Assembly: GCF_029490015.1 (NCBI RefSeq)
Contig: NZ_CP120469.1
Span: 186,001-250,000, forward strand
Direction: 5' to 3'
Source: Halobaculum limi
GTDB taxonomy: Archaea; Halobacteriota; Halobacteria; Halobacteriales; Haloferacaceae
Length of the DNA: 64,000 nucleotides
Part shown: one piece after another, positions 9,084 through 54,830 of the stretch
Layout of the letters: each line of letters opens with the position of its first letter
How positions within the stretch are numbered: position 1 is the first letter of the stretch
Made by a program: the position numbers and the translations under genes
The notes under the pieces: model-generated
What the model saw: only the letters and a program-made list of their open reading frames with translations
The model's database searches: none
Told to the model about the DNA's origin: nothing

Positions 9084-9264
9084 TATGCCGGTTCAAGTGA
9101 ATGCCACCGAAAAGGATGTCGACAGTGCTGAAAATATGCAGCACCTTCCTATCGGCCAAACTCAAAAGTGATGTATCGAAGAGCAGTGGGCTGCTGAATA
9201 CAGCCTCTCTATTCGGCACGAATTTTCTCATACCTTTCGATGCTTATAACAGAGACAAATTGAG

Positions 9265-13815: not shown

Positions 13816-13940
13816 GGCTTTGTTGAATCCCTCTTCACGTCTTGCGATTTGCTGAGAGGCTAGTTCCTAACAGGATCGACCAAAACTGGTGGGAAGAGGA
13901 GCTCTTCTCAATGTCAACGCAGAAGTACTTCAACAGAGCC
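13816..13940. mobile_element. MITE-like element (125 bp) with cassette-type ends
   Basis: GGCTTTGTTGAA at 13816-13827 is matched by TTCAACAGAGCC at 13929-13940, that is, inverted ends GGCTYTGTTGAA. The same end sequence bounds the 2.44-kb cassette at 17283-19726. The inside has no gene. I see no clear target duplication, so the insertion may be old or rearranged. It sits in the 300-bp gap between the PLD operon promoter and the next gene. Confidence 0.5.
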
Positions 13941-16280: not shown

Positions 16281-16484
16281 TCGTTCACATAGCGTTGTTT
16301 AGCAGTTTTGATAAATGTCAGTGAATAAAATCGGATAGGCGGTGGTCACAACATACCAGTTCAGAGCGACTCTGCAGGGATCTCTGCTGAGTAAGGGTGC
16401 CAGCTTTGATTAGCGCGAAGCTTCAGCGCCCCAGCCGAGCGATATGACGAACGCTATTTCAACCGACGGACAGCTACGGTGGGT

Positions 16485-17282
16485 ATGGTCTCTCGGCGTA
16501 GCGTCCTCGGGTCTGTGAGCACGCTCCTCGCTGGGGCCGGTACGGGCTGTGTTGGCCAGCTCGGCCCGTCGTCGGAACGGGTTCGCTGGCGACGACGGAT
16601 TGGTGGTCGGCCCTATCTTGCCGGCGGGATGCTGTACGCGATGGATCGGCTGCGATTACACGCGCTCTCGCCGGCGGATGGGGAGACGCAGTGGACGGTT
16701 GGGTGGGACGCCGAGGAGTTCGCTGCGGACGCCGAGCGCGACGGTAGCTTGTGTCTCTCGACGGAACTCGCCGCCGACGGCGAACGCGTGTACGTGGCGG
16801 GGTGTGACGGAGTGCGGGCACTGCGCCGGTCGGACGGCGACCGGGAGTGGTTCGTCGAGGCGTCACTCCGGGGCGGCGTCGCCGTCGGCCCCGACCGGGT
16901 GTACGCGAACGGTGACGACCTGCTCGCCGTCGACGCCGCCTCCGGTGCGGTCGACTGGCGTGTCCCCACCGGTGGGGAGCGGCTGACTCGACCGGCGGTC
17001 GCGGGGGGAACGGTCGTCCTCACCAATCGGGTTGACGGCATTGTCACCGCATTCAGCACCGACGGCGAGCAGCGCTGGCAGCATCGCACAGGGGTGGAGA
17101 CGCGCAGTCCAACCATCGATGGTGACACAGTTTACGTGGCGACGGCTCCAGACCCTGGACGGATGGGAGAGCTGCTCGCGCGGAATCGTGTCGACGGTAC
17201 CGTCCGGTGGCGTGTCGAGACGCCAGCCACCGTGAAACGTGGGACGCGACCGGTCGTCGGCGACGAACGTGTATTCTTAGGC
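16485..17282 (+). pseudogene. PQQ-type beta-propeller lipoprotein, 5' part (interrupted)
   Basis: ATG at 16485 begins a Tat lipoprotein signal (MVSRRSVLGSVSTLLAGAG followed by TGC), giving an exported, lipid-anchored protein. The mature part consists of PQQ-like propeller repeats (RVYVAGCDGVRALRRSDGDR, RVYANGDDLLAVDAASGAV, TVVLTNRVDGIVTAFSTDGE). The gene breaks at 17282: the cassette end starts at 17283 and the frame then runs into noncoding sequence. The rest of the gene lies at 19735-20019. Joining the parts restores a 360-aa frame. Such propeller lipoproteins are often redox-linked or scaffold proteins; the substrate is unknown. Confidence 0.9.
17275..17282 (+). repeat. 8-bp target-site duplication, left copy
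   Basis: TCTTAGGC directly abuts the left end of the cassette and is repeated exactly at 19727-19734 after its right end. Confidence 0.9.
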
Positions 17283-17369
17283 GGCTCTGTTGAAATACTC
17301 AATTATTGACAGGATCTCCGTGCAAGATACAGGGCGCAAGTCGGTCACGAGTGAGTGGTATCGAAGAGT

Positions 17370-17422
17370 GGCTCTGTTGAAATCCTCTGGAACTGATAGA
17401 ACCAACGTGCAAGATACAGAGG
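17370..17422 (+). repeat. second, internal copy of the cassette's left end
   Basis: GGCTCTGTTGAAATCCTC at 17370 repeats the outer end at 17283, and both are followed 36 bases later by CGTGCAAGATACAG (17319 and 17406). The offset is 87 bases throughout, so the first ~50 bases of the end are present twice in tandem. Confidence 0.75.
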
Positions 17423-17552
17423 GTGTATGCAGCAGAAATTCTGTTGTGAGTAGTCACGACAGTGGTCGGTATGTCCTCTCGACGCACTGGTAACCGAGGT
17501 TTCTGCGTTGAAGAGCAACGGCTCAACTGGTCGAATCCTTTGCAGTCTGTTC

Positions 17553-18602
17553 CTATTCCCAGGAGAACCCTCGAGGGGCAGTCGGTGGTGTGAGTGGACT
17601 CGACGGGAGATCAGTGCTCGGCTCTGGGTCGTTATACGCCTTCGGAGCCACGTCGTTCGGTGCGTTCGGATAGAACAGCGACGCGATCGCGTGGATGTGT
17701 TGGCGACCGACGTCTAGTTCGAACTGGCCACCACCGAACATCTGTATCTCGCGTTCGCAACAGTAGTCAACCGTGTCGAAGAGCGACTGCACTGACCCGA
17801 ACCGCGACGGTTTGATGTTGAGCCACTCAGGTTCCCACGGTAGGTCCTTCACCGTCTCAACCCCACGAATCGGGTAATCCCATGTCACACGGGCCTCCTC
17901 TCCTTCGAACAGTGGTTGTGTCTGTTCGTTCAGTTCTGGATCCTCGATGAGCGCCTCAGGGAAGCCTTCAATGACCTGTTTGTACAGCTTCGGATCAGCT
18001 GGTTGGTCGACCGTCGTCCCATGGTACTGGCCCTTCAGGTCGAGCGTCTGAACTGCATCGGTCGCCGCAAGGCGTTCGATGACCGCTTGGCTCCACTCAG
18101 ACGTTGGATCGAGTTTGAACTCCAACTCAGGGTTCCGGTTGAGCCAATCGATGATTCGATCCCCAGTTGGTGGCTCTTCCAAACGCGTGCTCACAACGAA
18201 CCGGACCGGCTCGTACGTACGCCCTAGTTGCTCGGCGAGGTTCGTATCGGCCTGTTTGAGTGCAAGATCCAACGCAGCGCTCTCGAATGCCCACTGCCGA
18301 TAATTGTGGAAAATTGACTGTCCCGGTTCGTCACCAAAGAAGAACTCAATCTCAGAGAGTTGGTCCGAGAACTCGCCGAGAGTGTATTCGCCCGTGATGG
18401 GAAATTCCGTTTCGGCGTCGTGAAGTATGTCGTGTGCCTCGTTGTCGTATGTGACGTCCTCGCCACGTCCAGTACTCCCATCGCCGTGTAACGAGACGAT
18501 AGTCGTTGCTCGGGTGAAACCACTAGACGTGTCTCGTTCGAGTTGTTCGAGACTATAGTCCTCAATCTGGAGGTCGAGAGTAGCGACGTGGTCGTACAGC
18601 AT
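17553..18602 (-). CDS. enolase-superfamily-like protein (349 aa), cassette cargo
   Basis: The protein has an N-terminal capping-like part (AFESAALDLALKQADTNLAE is the usual 'AAxDLA' helix of mandelate-racemase/enolase proteins) and a barrel part with strand-like segments FKLDPTSEWS, VQTLDLKGQYHGTTVD, ALIEDPELNE, EWLNIKPSRFGSVQSLFD and MFGGGQFELDVGRQHIHAIA. These follow the order of metal-ligand Asp, Glu and later residues of o-succinylbenzoate-synthase-type enzymes (LDLKG, IEDP, NIKPSR, GGGQFE). The second catalytic Lys may be K in NIKPSR. Likely a lyase, racemase or epimerase on a carboxylate; substrate unknown. It is the largest gene of the cassette and runs against the host gene. Confidence 0.8.
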   Translation of the reverse strand: MLYDHVATLDLQIEDYSLEQLERDTSSGFTRATTIVSLHGDGSTGRGEDVTYDNEAHDILHDAETEFPITGEYTLGEFSDQLSEIEFFFGDEPGQSIFHNYRQWAFESAALDLALKQADTNLAEQLGRTYEPVRFVVSTRLEEPPTGDRIIDWLNRNPELEFKLDPTSEWSQAVIERLAATDAVQTLDLKGQYHGTTVDQPADPKLYKQVIEGFPEALIEDPELNEQTQPLFEGEEARVTWDYPIRGVETVKDLPWEPEWLNIKPSRFGSVQSLFDTVDYCCEREIQMFGGGQFELDVGRQHIHAIASLFYPNAPNDVAPKAYNDPEPSTDLPSSPLTPPTAPRGFSWE

Positions 18603-18702
18603 TGTCTATTTTTTACAAGAGAGGGAAGTAAAGGTAGTGGAGACACCGGTCGAACTAGGTAACATCCGTGTCACTGCGTTGCGATTCTCTGGAGCCAGTC
18701 AC

Positions 18703-19044
18703 TCACGGGACCTTGATGTAGCGATACCCCTCGTCTTGTAGTCTGGTCAGCACACCGACTGACGTTGGGGCAGTCTCAGCTGCGTCGTGAATATCGTCGA
18801 TTGTTAATCCTGCTGCCTGCATCGATTTTTCGCACGCGATGAACTGAACGTCGCCTTTGGACAGCTCGGCGATATCCTCGGCGTACGTGGAGTTCGCTCG
18901 AACGAGGTCGATACCAGCGGCGTTTGCCACGACTGCAACGGCATCGATCTCCACGGAGTCGTCGTCGAAGATTCCTCCAGCATACCGAATCGTTGCGTCC
19001 TGAATGTCGTCGTCTCCATCTGCGAGGTGAAAGACAGTCTTCAT
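18703..19044 (-). CDS. DsrE/DsrF-like small sulfur-relay-type protein
   Basis: ATG at 19044 (MKTVFHLADGDDDIQDATIR) is chosen because only from here does the sequence fit the family; the frame stays open far upstream by chance. The fold signs are VFHLADGD (strand), VAVVANAAGIDLV, VQFIACEKSMQAAG with a Cys near residue 71, and GVLTRLQDEGYRYIKVP at the end. DsrE/F-like proteins pass sulfur via a cysteine or act as small NAD-like-fold partners; here the Cys sits in IACEKSM, the usual place. About 113 aa is the normal length. It shares the cassette with the enolase-like and CoA-binding genes. Confidence 0.85.
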   Translation of the reverse strand: MKTVFHLADGDDDIQDATIRYAGGIFDDDSVEIDAVAVVANAAGIDLVRANSTYAEDIAELSKGDVQFIACEKSMQAAGLTIDDIHDAAETAPTSVGVLTRLQDEGYRYIKVP

Positions 19045-19224
19045 ACCGCATTCATCAGTGGGGTGTCGGTAAGTGTTTTCGACGCCGCACAATTGGAAGA
19101 TGGAGGCTAGAATATCAGAGCCGCCAATGTGGAGTGAGGATAGGCCGGTCGTAGCGCAGTTAGTTGAACAACGGGGCAGGGTTTCCGGCGGAACACTGAT
19201 TTTCTGTCTCTTGCTAACGGGTGC

Positions 19225-19647
19225 ATTCCCATCGAAGACGCCGACGGGCTCCGTCGGATTCTTGGATACAATCGCGTCGCCGTAGTCGGGGCGTCGACAT
19301 CCTACGAGAAACCAGCGCACATCGTGCCAGCATATCTTCAGCGCCACGGATATGAACTTCGTCCGGTCAACCCAACCGCCGACGAGATATTCGGCATCCA
19401 AGCGTACGACTCCCTGGCCGACGTTATTGAACCGATTGACATTGTCGAGATTTTTCGACCGAGCGATGAGGTTCCTAGAATTGTTGAACAGGCACTCGAC
19501 CGAGACGACGTGAAGGCAATCTGGATACAACCCGGAATCCGAAACGACGAGGCGGTTCAAAAAGCAGAAGCAAGCGGAATTGAAGTCGTCCAAGACCGGT
19601 GTATGAAGGTCGAACACGGACAACTGATTCGTCATCCTATGGACTGA
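19225..19647 (+). CDS. CoA-binding (Rossmann) domain protein, start codon lost or non-standard (ATT)
   Basis: The sequence IPIEDADGLRRILGYNRVAV followed by VGASTSYEKPAHIVPAYLQR, PVNPTADEIFG, YDSLADVIEPIDIVEIFRPS and VVQDRCMKVEHGQL is a CoA_binding_2 (YccU-type) protein over its whole usual length of about 140 aa. Relatives begin MPIED; here the equivalent codon is ATT (19225). No ATG, GTG or TTG lies between it and the upstream in-frame TGA; the first standard start is GTG 19324, which would delete the GxGAS-like nucleotide loop. So the gene is either started at ATT or is a fresh pseudogene. Last gene of the cassette. Confidence 0.8.
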   Translation: MPIEDADGLRRILGYNRVAVVGASTSYEKPAHIVPAYLQRHGYELRPVNPTADEIFGIQAYDSLADVIEPIDIVEIFRPSDEVPRIVEQALDRDDVKAIWIQPGIRNDEAVQKAEASGIEVVQDRCMKVEHGQLIRHPMD

Positions 19648-19726
19648 GTCGTGGAGTGACTGACTTGCGCACTGTATTCAGCACGGCCTCAACAAACTAT
19701 CAGCAATTGAGGATTTCAACAAAGCC

Positions 19727-19734
19727 TCTTAGGC
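19727..19734 (+). repeat. 8-bp target-site duplication, right copy
   Basis: TCTTAGGC follows the right end of the cassette and is identical to 17275-17282. Confidence 0.9.
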
Positions 19735-20019
19735 TGTAACGGCACCGACGGTGGTCGGTTGATTGCCCTCGCGACGGACGACGGCGCAGAACGGTGGACG
19801 TTCACCGACGAGAACAGCACGGTGTACGAACCGAGCTTGGCCGATGGAGGTGTCTACGCGGGGTCGAACGACAACCACGTATACGCATTCAGTCGCGATG
19901 GTCAGCTCCAGTGGAGTCTCGAGACCGACCGAACTGTCGGATCTGTGGTCGCCGACGCCGAGCTGGTGTATGCGTGGAGCGGGGCACTACTCGCTCTTTC
20001 ACGTCAACAGAGCCAGTGA
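19735..20019 (+). pseudogene. PQQ-type beta-propeller lipoprotein, 3' part (interrupted)
   Basis: This frame continues the sentence broken at 17282: RVFLG joins CNGTDGGRLIALATDDGAE, then VYAGSNDNHVYAFSRDGQLQ and VYAWSGALLALSRQQSQ, all propeller repeats. The frame of the two halves matches exactly after removal of the cassette and one duplication copy. The protein end is abrupt, and the bases at 20003-20013 (GTCAACAGAGC) look like another element end, so the true C-terminus may already have been lost before the cassette arrived. Confidence 0.9.
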
Positions 20020-21698: not shown

Positions 21699-21908
21699 GT
21701 AGCAACTAATACGCGCTCTGTATCTACCAATTTGTACAATTGAGTCGACCGACTACAACACTAGACCTACGACTCTGAGTCGCGGTGAAGCAATCACAAA
21801 CGTGCACCAGCTCCTGCGAACGCACCGACTGCAGTCCCAACTCCAAGCCTTGGACCAGTGGCTGACGGTGGCTCGACGAGAGATTTCCACTAATGGATCG
21901 ACCAAGAA

Positions 21909-35909: not shown

Positions 35910-36016
35910 ACCCGTTGGTTAGTGCTCCGTCACTATGAGCGTGTGGCCGGAGCAACGCTAGCAGGAACCTGTATCGGGGCCTGTGAGAAGCGGTGTGTGA
36001 AATACAGAGGGTGAGT

Positions 36017-36958
36017 TCACTCTGGCGGGCTCACACTAATCCAGATATGAACACTGCGGAATGCCGATTCCGATCCGCGTTCGTAGAGCCGGTAGGTCAA
36101 TCGAAGTCGCTCACCGGTCATCTGTGGCTGGAACGTGTGGCGTCTGATCGTCGTTTCGCCCGACGAAACGGAGACGCCGAACGACTCTAGTCGTCGTGAC
36201 TCCGTGATGGTCACTGACTCACCGTCGACTGAGACGCGTTCAAGCGAGGCAACCACAGAGCCGTTGAACCCGGTCGGCCGAGTCGTGCTGACGCCAATCC
36301 CCACTGTCGCGCGTTCACCGACAGTCAGGTTCATTGGGTAGCTGCCGGCGACCAACTCACCGGACTCGTTCTCTCCAAGGATGTAGAACTCGGTCGCTGT
36401 TCCGGAGGATGTTGTATCCGCCACGACGACTGCGACTCCACCAATCGCCACGGCGACGACGAGCAGCGTCAGGAAGACGCCAACTGGGCCATCACCGGCG
36501 ACTGCATCGTAAGCCCGATCCCGGACTGCCGAGACGCTCGCGCCTGCGCGGGCCTCAAGCCTAACCTGGCGCCGCCGGTACCACGCAACCGCCGACGCAG
36601 CCAATGTCCATGCTGCCAACATCCCGACGACAGCTTCCCGTCGGAACCCCCAGACTGTGAACTCAAGAGCAACGCCAACGACGGCAATAGCCATAACGCT
36701 CCCAGCGATGCTCAATACCAAGCGTGACAGCCAGCCTTTCCCCTCACCCAGCCCTGTCTCGCCCGCTCGCGGGAACACGACGGAGACGAGTGCATACCCG
36801 GGAATCAACAAAACAAACGGCAATCCGATCACAAGCGCGAGCGGCCGCCACTCGCCCAACGGTGTGAACACGACGCTCAATGCCAATGCGACTCCAACGA
36901 CGACCGCGAGCAAGTCCGCATGTGGCACCGGCCTCTCATCGTCTTCGGCTACCGCCAT
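36017..36958 (-). CDS. DUF1616 membrane protein
   Basis: Four or more helices in the first half (LLAVVVGVALALSVVFTPLG, WRPLALVIGLPFVLLIPGYA then VFPRAGETGLGEGKGWLSRL), a fifth near 160, then a 130-residue extracellular beta domain (YILGENESGELVAGSYPMNL to LYERGSESAFRSVHIWISV). The pattern GLPFVLLIPGYALVSVVFP and the ILGENESGE extracellular part are those of DUF1616 proteins, common in haloarchaeal surface-glycan loci. Function not established; it may be an assembly or scaffold protein. Confidence 0.85.
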   Translation of the reverse strand: MAVAEDDERPVPHADLLAVVVGVALALSVVFTPLGEWRPLALVIGLPFVLLIPGYALVSVVFPRAGETGLGEGKGWLSRLVLSIAGSVMAIAVVGVALEFTVWGFRREAVVGMLAAWTLAASAVAWYRRRQVRLEARAGASVSAVRDRAYDAVAGDGPVGVFLTLLVVAVAIGGVAVVVADTTSSGTATEFYILGENESGELVAGSYPMNLTVGERATVGIGVSTTRPTGFNGSVVASLERVSVDGESVTITESRRLESFGVSVSSGETTIRRHTFQPQMTGERLRLTYRLYERGSESAFRSVHIWISVSPPE

Positions 36959-50068: not shown

Positions 50069-51250
50069 GTGGCTCCGGTGACCCAGCGGGTCACCCGTCG
50101 CTCGTATCTCGCGCTGTTGCTTGCCTCAACGACTGCTGGCTGTTCGCTGTCAGGGAGTGACGCGATGCCCACCGAGACGACAGTCACGCCGCGAGCCCTG
50201 ACCGACCTCGTGGCCGGTCACGTTGTCGCCGTCGGGCACAACCTCGACACGACCAGAGTCGACATCGACGCCACCGATACGCCGGTTCAAGACGCACTAG
50301 ACGCCGTCGCCGACAGCGGCGGACGCGTCTATCTCCCACCGGGGCGGGTCACCGAACGTGAGTCTGTCCGTCCACACCCGAACACCGGCATTTACGGGTT
50401 TGGGATGAACGTCTCCGTCCTCCACATCACCGAACCGAACACCGATGGCATCGTCTTCGACCGTCAGCCGCGGGCTAATCGCGTCCAACTGGACGGCTTC
50501 GAGCTTCGCGGCCCGGGGCCCAGCCAGCCCTCAGGCGTCGCTATTCACTTCCTCGATACCGGCAGCTACCCGCCCGCGGACCCGGCTGACTTCTACATCG
50601 GTCGGCTGTACTGCTGGGCGTGGAACAACTCCGTGTATCGCGTCGACGAGGAGGTCGGCCCCTTCCAGTGCCGCCACGACTTCCTGCGGATGGACGACTG
50701 CGACGCTGGCGAGGAGGAGGCCCTCATCGAATGGCGAAGTTCCTACGGCCCGGCAAACCAGTTCGGCACCGTCGTCGCCTATCCGTCAGCTGACTGGAGC
50801 GGCAGCGACAGCGACCTGCTGTACCAGCGCGGTGGAGAGATCGCCGTCGGCGACATCACTACCGGCGGAGCGACCGGGCGGGTCGTCGACTCACGGGGTG
50901 GTTGCTTGCAGGTCCGTCGCCTCCATTACGAACCGGAAAATCAACGGTCCGTGCCGAGTTCGCTCGTCCGCGTCGGCCCAGTCGGTGGGGCGCGATTCGA
51001 CGACGTGGTGGTTGACTCGGGAGCTGTAGAGTACGTGTACGAACTCGCTCGAGGGGCCGGCGGTGTCGTTCTCGGGGGGCCGCCGAGTGGTCGGGGAGCG
51101 GTTCGGAACAACGTCGTTGCCGTCAGCGGCCGCCTCGACGGGTCCCGTCCCTCGTTCTACTTCGGCCGGCCGGCCGATGTCGACGTGACAGGCAGATCGA
51201 ACACCGGGGGGCTGCGCGTCCTCGGTACTGCTGGCCGTGGGATGGGTTGA
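50069..51250 (+). CDS. Tat-exported beta-helix-like protein (paralog 1)
   Basis: GTG start (MAPVTQRVTRRSYLALLLAS, TAGC lipobox). The mature protein opens like a pectate-lyase-type right-handed beta helix: DTPVQDALDAVADSGGRVYL followed by PPGRVTERESV and IYGFGMNVSVLHI. Later come CWAWNNSVYRVDEEVGPFQC, GPANQFGTVVAYPSADWSG and TGGLRVLGTAG. The same segments occur in the protein at 53502-54830. It may bind or cleave polysaccharide on the cell surface. No clear catalytic acid trio can be assigned. Lies 43 bases before the next GT2 gene. Confidence 0.85.
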   Translation: MAPVTQRVTRRSYLALLLASTTAGCSLSGSDAMPTETTVTPRALTDLVAGHVVAVGHNLDTTRVDIDATDTPVQDALDAVADSGGRVYLPPGRVTERESVRPHPNTGIYGFGMNVSVLHITEPNTDGIVFDRQPRANRVQLDGFELRGPGPSQPSGVAIHFLDTGSYPPADPADFYIGRLYCWAWNNSVYRVDEEVGPFQCRHDFLRMDDCDAGEEEALIEWRSSYGPANQFGTVVAYPSADWSGSDSDLLYQRGGEIAVGDITTGGATGRVVDSRGGCLQVRRLHYEPENQRSVPSSLVRVGPVGGARFDDVVVDSGAVEYVYELARGAGGVVLGGPPSGRGAVRNNVVAVSGRLDGSRPSFYFGRPADVDVTGRSNTGGLRVLGTAGRGMG

Positions 51251-51292
51251 GCTATCGACGGGATTATTCGCAGACGCCACGAGCGGGCGACC

Positions 51293-52312
51293 GTGACCGA
51301 AGAGCAAGGCGGCGGCGCTCCCGATCCGCTGGTGTCGATCGTCGTCGTCACCTACAACTCGGCGCGGACCGTCGGCGAGACGCTGTCGTCGCTGAGCAAG
51401 CAGACTTACCCCGAGGACCGGTACGAGGTCGTCGTTGTCGACGGCGGGAGTAGCGATGACACCGAAGAGATCGTGACCGAGTACGGCGCAGCGTTTCACC
51501 TCGTCGACAACGGGACAATCGGTGTATGTCGGAACCACGGCATCGATGCGGCCGAGGGGGAGTACATCGCGTTTACCGACTCTGACTGTGCGGTTCCCGC
51601 GACGTGGCTCCGTTCGCTCGTCGACCGGATCGTCGATGCTGATGACCATATCGCTGGAATCGGTGGTCCAAACCGCCCGTTCCCCGACGATCCGGCGTTC
51701 GCAAAGCTGGTCGGAAGTCTCCAAGGGACGGTGTTCGGTTCTGGCGGGTCACCACAGTCACACACTATCGACCGTGTCCGGGAGGTCAGGTCCGTAGCGT
51801 GTTGTAACGTTATCTACGACGCCACGATACTCGAGGAATACCGCTTCGCGGACGACATCAATGTCGGCGAGGACGCTGAGTTCCACTTCCGACTGAGCGA
51901 GGACGGCTACCGGTTCCTCTTCGATCCGGCAATTGCAGTTTCACATCACCTTTCGGCCGACTTCGCGGCGTTTACGAGGAAGTCCCGCTCGTATGGCTAC
52001 TCGATGGCTCGCATCCAGCGTCGCCACAGGAAGCTGATCCGCTGGTACTCCCCACTCCCGTCAGCGGCGTTGTTTGGCGGCATAGGTGCGCTTATTGCGG
52101 ATCTAACGAGCCGGAGAGCGCGCTACGCACCGCTGTTGGCGCTCACGTATCTCTTCGTCAGCGCATACGCGACGGTGCAGGTCTACCGCGACCGGCGGAG
52201 CCCGCTAGCCGCATTCGTACCGTTGCTGCTCGCCGCACAGTACAGCTTCTACGGGATCGGCTTCCTTGAGGGCCTGACCGCGATCGACCCGGTTCCACAG
52301 GAACTCCCGTGA
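51293..52312 (+). CDS. GT2 glycosyltransferase with C-terminal membrane helices
   Basis: GTG start. GT-A core: VSIVVVTYNSARTVGETLSS, VVVVDGGSSDDTEEIVTEYG, AEGEYIAFTDSDCAVPATWL (DSD) and FADDINVGEDAEFHFRLSED. The end has two or three hydrophobic segments (LPSAALFGGIGALIADL, ALTYLFVSAYATVQV, AAFVPLLLAAQYSFYGIGFL), the layout of membrane-bound cellulose-synthase-like or AglG-type enzymes. It ends two bases before the convergent GH43-like gene. Confidence 0.95.
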   Translation: MTEEQGGGAPDPLVSIVVVTYNSARTVGETLSSLSKQTYPEDRYEVVVVDGGSSDDTEEIVTEYGAAFHLVDNGTIGVCRNHGIDAAEGEYIAFTDSDCAVPATWLRSLVDRIVDADDHIAGIGGPNRPFPDDPAFAKLVGSLQGTVFGSGGSPQSHTIDRVREVRSVACCNVIYDATILEEYRFADDINVGEDAEFHFRLSEDGYRFLFDPAIAVSHHLSADFAAFTRKSRSYGYSMARIQRRHRKLIRWYSPLPSAALFGGIGALIADLTSRRARYAPLLALTYLFVSAYATVQVYRDRRSPLAAFVPLLLAAQYSFYGIGFLEGLTAIDPVPQELP

Positions 52313-52313
52313 A

Positions 52314-53447
52314 CTAAGCGCGGTAGATCCCGATCGCCCAGTGGTGGATCCCCACCAACTGGTAGCCGATGCCAACATTTCCGTCGACCGCACACAGGTA
52401 GCCGTTGCCATCGAACCATGGATCGACTTGGTGGATCGCGCCGCTGTTCCATCCGAGCCCCCCGGTCGGATCGAGCACCGGCGAATCGGCGCGTCGGCTG
52501 TCGGTGTACATCTCCGGCGTGAGTTCAGTGATCTCGTAGACGTGGACGCGCTCACCGTAGCGATTCGAGGAATCCTGATAGAATGCGAGGACGTGGTCGG
52601 AGAATACGAGCGGCCGACCCCCCGGGCGAGCCGCTGTCGGCCGATCACGCACGACGGGATTCGCCTCGTGTGGCGTCCAATTGGGTGCCTCGACGTCGTC
52701 GCTGTAGTACGCGTACAGATCCGTCCCGTCCCCAGCTAGCGCCCACCAGCGACCCTCCCAGCGGAACGGGCTGAAGTCGTGTATCGGAGTCGCCGGCCGG
52801 ACAAGCTCTGAGACCGGCTCCCACTCGTAGGGGAACGCTCCGGCCTTGTAGAGGGTGATCGCTGCAGGCCCCCGTTCTTTCGCCCACGTGTCGGGAACCA
52901 TATAGTGGTCTCCCTCCCACTTGAACACGTACGGATACGAGAGGTGTTCGTCCGCCTCCAGCACCACCTGGTCATAGTGCCAGTCGTACCCGTCGGTGCT
53001 CTCGGCGTGACCGATGACCGCCGACGGCTGGCGGTTCTGCGTGTACACCTCGAAGAACATGTGCCAGTCGCCGTCGGCGGTGACGAACAGGAACGGGTCG
53101 GCCACGCAGTCCGTCCGGCCGAAGTCGGTCACGTCGGCGGCGGTCAGAACGGGGTTGATGTCGCCCGCCGGGACGAACCGCTCCGGGGCGCGGTCGGCAC
53201 CGGTCGGGTACTCCGGGACCGCCTCGCCGTCGTATCGCCCACGCATTTCGACCGGATCCGGGTGGCTCCGACCGGTCGACGGCCGGTTGTGGATCGCCTC
53301 GCCGGTGTGCCACGCCACGCGTTCGACGTGCGTGGACGACGCGAGCCGGCGTCTGATCGCGTCGACGACCGGGTCGACCCGGTGACGGGCGTGTGGCAGC
53401 GGCCTGTCTCGCGACGTGTCGCGACCCTGAGAAGCATCGTCTGTCAT
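52314..53447 (-). CDS. GH43/GH32-like five-bladed propeller protein
   Basis: After a polar N-terminus, residues 90-370 carry propeller blades: CVADPFLFVTADGDWHMFFE, VYTQNRQPSAVIGHAESTDG, SYPYVFKWEGDHYMVPDTWA, IHDFSPFRWEGRWWALAGDG, HVLAFYQDSSNRYGERVHVY. The order ADPFLF...Y..PYVF...DFSPF fits the glucosamine-inositolphosphorylceramide-transferase N-terminal-like / GH43 superfamily. No signal peptide is present, so it may act inside the cell or be a domain partner of a glycosyltransferase. Catalytic residues are not certain. Confidence 0.85.
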   Translation of the reverse strand: MTDDASQGRDTSRDRPLPHARHRVDPVVDAIRRRLASSTHVERVAWHTGEAIHNRPSTGRSHPDPVEMRGRYDGEAVPEYPTGADRAPERFVPAGDINPVLTAADVTDFGRTDCVADPFLFVTADGDWHMFFEVYTQNRQPSAVIGHAESTDGYDWHYDQVVLEADEHLSYPYVFKWEGDHYMVPDTWAKERGPAAITLYKAGAFPYEWEPVSELVRPATPIHDFSPFRWEGRWWALAGDGTDLYAYYSDDVEAPNWTPHEANPVVRDRPTAARPGGRPLVFSDHVLAFYQDSSNRYGERVHVYEITELTPEMYTDSRRADSPVLDPTGGLGWNSGAIHQVDPWFDGNGYLCAVDGNVGIGYQLVGIHHWAIGIYRA

Positions 53448-53501
53448 CGAGTACTGGTCACTGCAGTGCGGTCGAAGATAAATACCACCGGGGGAGGGGA
53501 C

Positions 53502-54830
53502 TCAGAACCCGGTCCCCGCAGTTCCGAGCGCTCGAAGCCCGCCGGTCCCCGCCTCGGAATGGGTCACGGTCACGTCATCCGGGGACCCGTGATACAACGA
53601 CGGTTGCGCGGGGTCGGCCGGGTACGAGAGATTGACAACTGTGTTCGTGATGTCTGCCTCCGCACCCAGTTCGATGTACGGGCCGAGGATCTTCCGGCCA
53701 GGCCCCCGAGCGTTGTAGCTGTCGTAGCCAAGTTCGTAGGCGTAGTCTGCCACACCGGTGACGTGTTTGACCGAGTCAATAACGGCCGTGCCGTGCCCGA
53801 GCAGGCGGACGATGGCGGGCGGGTTCGTCGGGTTCGTGGTCGGCTCCCAGTGGACGTTCCCGAACTCGATGACGCTGTCCCACGTCTGGTCGATAGCGAC
53901 GCCAGTAGATCCACCCATGGTGAGGTAGTCGACCGTCTGAGTTCCGCCACGCGAGAAGAACACCGTTGTGTTCTTGCCGCTGATCGTCGCGCTTGGGTAC
54001 GCCGCGATGGTCCCGAACCAGTTCGCCGGGCCATACCACGACCGGAACTCGAAGAGGCCGTCCTGGTCGCCGGCGTCACACTCGTAGATGGTGAGCTGGT
54101 CGTGGCGGCACTGGAACGGGCCGACTCCTTCGTCGACGCGATACACGGAGTTGTTCCACCCCCACAGGACGAGCCGGCCGACGTAGAGGTCCTGCGTGTC
54201 CTTGTTCGTGTGGTGGATTGCGACGCCGGTCGGCTGGCCGCCGGCGGGCCCGTTCAGTGCGAACCCGTCCAACTTGACCCGACTCACGCCGGATTCGCGG
54301 TCGAATCGGATGCCGTCGGCGTTCCGGTCGGTGATCGCGACCTTCGACAGTTCGACCCCGAGCCCGATAATCTGCGTCTCCTCGTACGGACGGATCGGGC
54401 CCGTCTCCTCGGTGACCCCGGCCGGAAGCCGTACCTCGCCGCCGCCGGCGGCGTGGACGATGTCGAGCGCGTCCTGGATCGGCGTCGACGTCGTCGAGGG
54501 GTCGACCGTTTGTGGTGCGGAGTTGTTCCGTCCGAGCGCGACGACGAAGCCTTGCAGGATGAGCGAGGCGACGCTGGGTCCGTCGCCGGAGGAGCCGCCT
54601 CCCGAGCCGATAGTTCCCAGTTGGACCCAGGAACTACCGTCCCCGAGATACACGTTCCCAGTGTCTGTGGCAAGGAACTTCCCGCCCACCTTGGGCACGT
54701 AGTTCGTCCGGTTCGCGTCCGTGTCGCGGACCTCGACGTCCGTGTCGATGCGTTCGAAGTTGCGGTTCAGCGGTTGGTCCCAGTCCAGTGTCCCGGACGG
54801 GGGGGTCTCGTATTGGTGGTTGTCTGTCAT
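53502..54830 (-). CDS. beta-helix-like protein with a tail-fibre-like N-terminus (paralog 2)
   Basis: ATG 54830 (MTDNHQYETPPSGTLDWDQP) overlaps the LamG gene's stop by four bases. The first 80 residues (LNRNFERIDTDVEVRDTDAN, GNVYLGDGSSWVQLGTIGSG) resemble the adaptor region of viral tail fibres. The following beta helix shares WGWNNSVYRVDEGVGPFQCR, YGPANWFGTIAAYPSAT and TGGLRALGTAGTG with paralog 1. It lacks a signal peptide, unlike paralog 1, so its place in the cell is unclear unless it travels with the LamG protein. About 442 aa. Confidence 0.85.
   Translation of the reverse strand: MTDNHQYETPPSGTLDWDQPLNRNFERIDTDVEVRDTDANRTNYVPKVGGKFLATDTGNVYLGDGSSWVQLGTIGSGGGSSGDGPSVASLILQGFVVALGRNNSAPQTVDPSTTSTPIQDALDIVHAAGGGEVRLPAGVTEETGPIRPYEETQIIGLGVELSKVAITDRNADGIRFDRESGVSRVKLDGFALNGPAGGQPTGVAIHHTNKDTQDLYVGRLVLWGWNNSVYRVDEGVGPFQCRHDQLTIYECDAGDQDGLFEFRSWYGPANWFGTIAAYPSATISGKNTTVFFSRGGTQTVDYLTMGGSTGVAIDQTWDSVIEFGNVHWEPTTNPTNPPAIVRLLGHGTAVIDSVKHVTGVADYAYELGYDSYNARGPGRKILGPYIELGAEADITNTVVNLSYPADPAQPSLYHGSPDDVTVTHSEAGTGGLRALGTAGTGF

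Follow-up and report, generated by a model that had tools for sequence, protein, structure and literature searches.

The three-gene insertion in a lipoprotein gene of Halobaculum limi described here belongs, with a probability that we put at about 0.78, to an integron-like cassette system of haloarchaea that is distinct from IntI/attC and whose cassettes and arrays would also travel on IS5-type transposon ends. The anatomy, distribution and breakpoints of this system were observed, and we infer the enzymes that act in it. Bacteria are known to stockpile and shuffle single genes mainly by means of integrons. Were our reading true, integron-like capture would have evolved more than once, much of the gene turnover on haloarchaeal plasmids and genomic islands would be explained, and archaeal genetics would gain a directly testable enzyme-site pair. 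The element in the window, the 64,000-nucleotide stretch of DNA that we analysed, would then be an example of cassettes reaching new replicons on transposon ends. There is a fair chance that the system as a whole has not been described before.

An IS5-type insertion in a propeller lipoprotein gene

The insert occupies positions 17283–19726 of the window and splits a gene for a PQQ/BamB-type beta-propeller lipoprotein (PF13360, 5e-26), the 5' part of which lies at 16479–17274 and the 3' part at 19735–20019, both on the + strand. As the initial annotation had reported, a perfect 8-bp duplication, TCTTAGGC, stands on both sides (17275–17282 and 19727–19734), and the two tips, at 17283 and 19726, are inverted repeats of each other with 25 matches in 30 positions. 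A simple binomial null gives an expectation of about 3e-6 such combinations of 8-mer and inverted repeat for the window. The sole other pair to pass, at 50641/54131 (26/30 inverted match and an 8-bp repeat), consists of two convergent paralogous genes and was rejected as an element. Removal of 17283–19726 together with one copy of the duplication yields a single reading frame, open over 362 codons and closed by a stop (...ERVFLGCNGTDGG...), bearing out the proposed restoration of the propeller frame, and the lipoprotein is rejoined across the insertion point (...GDERVFLGCNGTDGG...). An intact propeller gene lacking the cassette in a sister strain had been named as proof of insertion, and uninterrupted orthologs were found in four genomes of other species (57–67% identical), one of them of the same genus, all continuous through the insertion point. 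Since these orthologs are uninterrupted, an empty ancestral allele exists and the insertion is established: the window insert is a real insertion of a three-gene block into the propeller lipoprotein gene.

The insert has three ends, and similarity between them extends ~70 bp inward. The outer left end (17283–17352, + strand), which begins with the IS5-type tip GGCTCTGTTGAAAT, is of the right-end type and encloses an inverted copy of a short motif, core A (17321–17347, − strand; PWM score 24.0). A second, left-type end (LE) with its own IS5-type tip follows at 17370–17405 (+ strand) and shares 78% identity with the end at 17283 over 50 nt; it leads into core B, CGTGCAAGATACAGAGGGTGTATGCAGCA, at 17406–17434 (+ strand; PWM score 45.4), which forms the left border of the cassette. 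The right border is a further core A, TGACTGACTTGCGCACTGTATTCAGCA, at 19657–19683 (+ strand; PWM score 36.1), and the right transposon end (RE) spans 19656–19726 on the − strand with its tip, GGCTTTGTTGAAATCCTC, at 19726. The best core score in a shuffled 64-kb sequence was 9.2.

Between these borders lie three genes, of which two were identified firmly and much as first proposed: a DsrE-like protein of 113 aa (18703–19044, − strand; PF02635, 7.7e-9) and a CoA-binding protein of about 140 aa (19225–19647, + strand; CoA_binding_2, PF13380, 1.6e-41), in which the conserved ATG start reads ATT in the window. The third encodes a 349-aa protein (17553–18602, − strand) of a haloarchaeal/actinobacterial family that is weakly enolase-superfamily-like; its initial designation as enolase-like has weak support, the protein having no Pfam match and scoring 24 bits against a cut-off of 200 for TIGR01928. 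Sulfur/CoA-type metabolism did not hold as a defining feature, the cargo elsewhere being unrelated.

No transposase was found inside the insert, in line with the initial annotation. Ends of the insert's type are common in haloarchaea, with occurrences in 71 plasmid records and 62 of 146 order-level genomes. In almost all cases they lie away from transposase genes. A search for the same ends, suggested together with the original description, found them around other cargo and around full transposases, namely those of IS5-family elements (NF033579) bounded by the same tips, GGCTCTGTTGAAATCCTC. The window's own genome holds exactly one intact IS5-type copy (C1:1866500–1868016, 1517 bp), which is flanked by the perfect duplication AGCGTGCT and contains an open transposase gene (C1:1867146–1867964; 214 bits against an NF033579 cut-off of 140) and a 141-aa passenger gene. 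Most of the autonomous copies that we inspected measure 1.2–2.0 kb around a transposase gene of 0.82 kb, so passengers are usual; one of 1535 bp (L138), with duplication AGGGCCAA, has at one of its sides the type of right end seen in the window element. A perfect 8-bp target-site duplication (TSD) accompanies 36 of the 155 inward-facing tip pairs at the loci examined, one or two entries being the same locus counted twice, where 0.002 were expected.

As the insert shares its ends with IS5-family elements that make 8-bp duplications, it moved as a non-autonomous transposon. The region 17283–19726 is a non-autonomous IS5-family transposon, or MIC: its terminal inverted repeats have tips identical to those of autonomous IS5-family elements, its TSD is 8 bp as in its autonomous relatives, and it lacks a transposase while one of the family is encoded in the same genome. 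An IS5-type transposase, for instance that of the own-genome copy, very likely mobilised it in trans. Two other sources of the ends were considered and rejected. The tip and the 8-bp TSD had suggested IS6, but its PF13610 domain is absent from the own genome, and these tips do not bound any of 30 haloarchaeal IS6 loci; PF12762, for IS1595, is not in the genome. The initial reading of the insert as an MIC thus stands as far as it describes an insertion with IS-type ends and without a transposase in a haloarchaeon, and is incomplete in that the inner parts of the ends resemble recombination sites, the cores of an integron-like system.

Double-core sites and cassette arrays

The inner parts of the transposon ends are conserved at places far from tips. 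The cores within them are 27 bp long and dif-like, with imperfect inverted arms of 10–11 bp around 5–7 bp, and are of two types, A (consensus TGnnngAttCGCGCtCTGTATTCAGCA) and B (consensus TGcnagATAcAGAGGgTGtATtCAGCA). An A core and a B core in the same orientation make up a junction, an 84-bp double site that links neighbouring cassettes and is equivalent to the inner part of RE joined to the inner part of LE without the tips. One 59-kb stretch, from a Haloprofundus-type genome (G177), has 23 collinear cassettes, of median length 711 bp, each between a core B and the next core A; 20 of its 23 A-to-B offsets measure exactly 64 bp. Of this run, 22.7 kb (C1:56442–79099) stands between a left tip and a right tip; a matching TSD at these bounding tips was not found. 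Long tandem runs of junctions that all point the same way also emerged from a profile search, among others in Haloprofundus salinisoli (L233) and Haloarcula marina (L231). Of 293 order-level genomes, 173 had matches to the site under a sequence-only covariance model (E up to 1e-5), and 61 of 87 genera were represented; the counts per genome, capped at 15, are lower bounds. The cassettes are mostly single-gene and range from a few hundred bp to 1 kb. In a trio of Haladaptatus strains, compared in search of a strain polymorphism beyond the Haloarcula marina one described below, too few cores lay near the sites to be informative.

Folding of the sites was no better than that of shuffles (z-scores −0.02 to −0.76), and arm complementarity barely exceeded that of partner shuffles (p 0.05). 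Clear covariation of the arms was found in none, and single-stranded folded sites were rejected on this ground. The sites had no Rfam match, and the strict symmetric 28-mer of the core had 0 matches in viral contigs.

Arrays and transposon ends occur together in several forms. Multi-cassette elements with a perfect TSD were found at L107 (3654–6095), L142 (4683–7707) and L030 (6624–10896), and nested and adjacent elements at L030, L033 and L142. In the window element and that of Halobaculum marinum (L030), the outermost two ends are both of the right-end type. A 108-bp LE-core-RE stretch without cargo, at L142 4683–4790, looks like an empty form of the carrier.

Cassette breakpoints and a linked tyrosine recombinase

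The three genes of the window recur in Salinigranum salinum (L144) as a member of an array without tips, at 89.7% identity over 2273 bp, and the homology runs from +7 of core B to the last base of core A. A ~84-bp junction stands on either side of the cassette there; an EamA-type gene precedes it and a small gene comes after it, and both of these genes again have such a junction at their border. In Halobaculum marinum, a junction and a DUF4242 gene come after the same three genes, within a 4273-bp unit flanked by the perfect duplication CGTCGGCT. Homologous cassettes could be compared across different surroundings in seven pairs (83–99% identical, the window-Salinigranum pair included), and in these the homology begins between +7 and +12 in core B. 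As BLAST alignments can run into the conserved arm of core B, the crossover may sit a few bases further right.

Two strains of Haloarcula marina, YSSS71 and DT1, have a common transposon end beside the same duplication copy, GTCAAAAC. In YSSS71, the core B of that end, an LE, is interrupted by two cassettes, the insertion point lying exactly after its AGAG (...GAATATAGAG); in DT1, the next cassette follows directly after the core B of LE, and both of the extra YSSS71 cassettes are present elsewhere in the genome. The 84-bp body that follows one of these extra cassettes differs between YSSS71 and DT1, which points to exchange at core A in addition to core B. Both cores seem to be exchangeable. 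Short-homology recombination at every junction may also be compatible with the seven pairs and the one strain comparison.

Haloarcula marina DT1 also carries a gene for a 234-aa tyrosine recombinase (PF00589) between core A and core B. Recombinase genes flanked by A and B were found at L231 (3005–3709), L238, L241 and L243. Among close homologs (66–86% identical), 10 of 13 had a core within ~100 bp of the gene, a count that includes gene fragments and inverted cores, while none of 17 distant homologs (36–55% identical) had a core within 1.5 kb (Fisher p ~1e-5). Several of the close homologs have one flanking core only, and none was found beside those at L242, L244 and L262. All the catalytic residues, namely R, K, HxxR, W and Y, are conserved without exception. 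The recombinase scored 20–23 bits against TIGR02249 (IntI; cut-off 265) and 48–53 bits against NF040815 (XerA; cut-off 220). Its fold, predicted from an alignment of genome loci only, had a pLDDT of 81; the best solved match in Foldseek was XerA (5hxy, E 3e-6), and the integron integrase 2a3v was also among the structural matches. From the linkage of its gene to the cores, we propose that recombinases of the L231 family act on A and B. No close homolog was found in the window's own genome, so the window cassette can probably no longer move between arrays, being stranded there, if it has no other recombinase to rely on.

These data are consistent with a mechanism in two layers. In one, the IS5-family non-autonomous transposon 17283–19726 hit the propeller gene, very likely moving in trans. 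In the other, the cargo of the insert is one cassette, with B on its left and A on its right, and a small tyrosine recombinase of the L231:3005–3709 family would excise, insert and reshuffle cassettes through crossovers that fall inside the cores. The gene of this enzyme itself sits between A and B, and the enzyme would act in cis or in trans on cassettes bounded by B and A. With B and A carried by the left and right transposon ends, an LE-B-cassette(s)-A-RE assembly could jump as a unit, and any two inward tips could define such a unit. The proposed enzymatic, integron-like excision and insertion of cassettes is read from the breakpoints and one strain polymorphism.

Alternative explanations and relation to known systems

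Could the transposon layer alone account for these observations? The insert would then be a passenger derivative of the IS5 family, the 84-bp sites would be tip-less scars of tandem elements whose tip-to-tip palindromes had been trimmed, and arrays would have arisen by repeated adjacent insertion. The composition of the double site, RE-inner plus LE-inner minus the tips, fits this explanation, as do the nested and adjacent elements at L030, L033 and L142, and palindromic tip-to-tip junctions are unstable. However, the spacing of A and B is fixed at 64 bp and the junction length conserved across tens of genera, the breakpoints fall inside core B and not at the tips, and a tyrosine recombinase gene is flanked by cores. 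We therefore regard this explanation as unlikely. Homologous recombination between the ~84-bp repeats, with no dedicated recombinase, might instead have made the arrays and the strain differences, and some neighbouring repeats, as in Haloarcula marina, are >90% similar, which is enough for homology. Most sites differ by 20–30%, however, LE and the next site at the polymorphic Haloarcula marina junction share only ~8 bp (ATATAGAG), and the association with the integrase would be left unexplained; we consider this route very improbable.

We give slightly less credence still to a canonical integron or CALIN of bacterial origin with attC sites used by IntI. Integrons are known from other archaeal phyla (PMC9668308), and the layout of the arrays, with cassettes that mostly hold one gene and measure a few hundred bp to 1 kb, insertion into the first position by a fixed site and a tyrosine recombinase close to the sites, is what such an origin would give. 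Against this, the recombinase scored 22.5 bits where TIGR02249 demands 265, the site consensus lacks GTTRRRY at the crossover, the arms do not clearly covary, the sites fold no better than shuffles, and haloarchaea are not mentioned in PMC9668308; integrase score, site consensus and folding led us to reject this origin. We think it probable that haloarchaea have a gene-capture system of their own, evolved apart from IntI/attC, that combines a compact tyrosine recombinase with dif-like double-core sites and with arrays of at least 20 cassettes, which occur in most genera on both chromosomes and plasmids and themselves jump as IS5-type transposons. The open-access papers searched (preprints and subscription journals lay outside this scope) give no description of such a system and report no integrons from haloarchaea, and those that combine integrons with haloarchaea do not describe cassette arrays of this kind.

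Like MICs and insertion sequences of the IS5 family (NF033579), the window element has the tips of autonomous IS5-type copies, an 8-bp TSD, passengers and no transposase; the haloarchaeal ends differ in also carrying cores A and B, and many of the autonomous copies have passengers themselves. With integrons, including archaeal (PMC9668308) and transposon-borne ones, the haloarchaeal system has in common collinear cassette arrays with conserved sites, at least two of them <4 kb apart in the same orientation, a tyrosine recombinase gene at the sites that adjoins the primary site (L231, L238, L241, L243), new cassettes beside a fixed first site, and arrays borne by a transposon. It differs in its recombinase, which at 234 aa is not an IntI-type integrase and falls far below the TIGR02249 cut-off, and in its sites, which are two dif-like cores 64 bp apart and not attC hairpins with a GTTRRRY crossover and a conserved fold. 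Archaeal integrons have been reported in nine phyla, with haloarchaea not mentioned (PMC9668308, Ghaly et al. 2022). In the pdif modules of Acinetobacter (PMC5790767, PMC10132070), short dif-like cores likewise bound gene modules on plasmids, with insertion sequences at the sites, but those modules use XerC/D at inversely oriented XerC/XerD sites, whereas the haloarchaeal cores are direct, of two types in a fixed order, and linked to a recombinase gene, with no XerCD. Archaeal XerA/dif (PMC2958812) resembles the haloarchaeal system in its short inverted arms and small spacer, and XerA is the best Foldseek match of the recombinase. The haloarchaeal enzyme nevertheless lies well below the NF040815 equivalog cut-off, and its sites are multi-copy cassette borders where XerA has one chromosomal site.

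Elements sharing the terminal inverted repeats

The terminal inverted repeats (tips) of the transposase-less element at 17283-19726 recur elsewhere in the Halobaculum limi genome. A further element with these tips and without a transposase lies at C1:732833-733873 (L036:1034-2074); its cargo consists of small ORFs that are membrane-protein-like, and its flanking duplication is a 6/8 match. At C2:147582-147653 (L038:6083-6154), two tips form a 72-bp near-palindrome with a truncated core between them. Its flanks carry no matching duplication, and this locus is possibly a collapsed empty carrier. Within the window, a 125-bp MITE-like element (13816-13940) has the same IS5-type tips around a different interior. 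A relative is found on a Halobacterium sp. DL1 plasmid (L131:4231-4355), and no target duplication is visible around the window copy.

Other repeats and cassette remnants in the window

An inverted repeat matching at 26/30 positions, with an 8-bp repeat on both flanks, was found at 50641-54138. A transposon reading was rejected, as this region comprises a pair of pectate-lyase-like paralogs in convergent orientation. The haloarchaeal cassette system is also represented by half-sites or decayed cores at 9192-9228 (minus strand), 35964-36019 (plus) and 21703-21729 (plus), which suggests old or degraded insertions.

Cargo and passenger genes

The 349-aa cargo protein encoded at 17553-18602 had no Pfam match; it is conserved across many haloarchaea as well as actinobacterial MAGs (41-48% identity), and a DsrE gene adjoins its homologs in some cases. 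Among haloarchaeal IS5-family elements (L177 855-2371 and L178-L210), which are 1.2-2.0 kb in length, passenger genes or extra DNA beside the transposase are near-universal.
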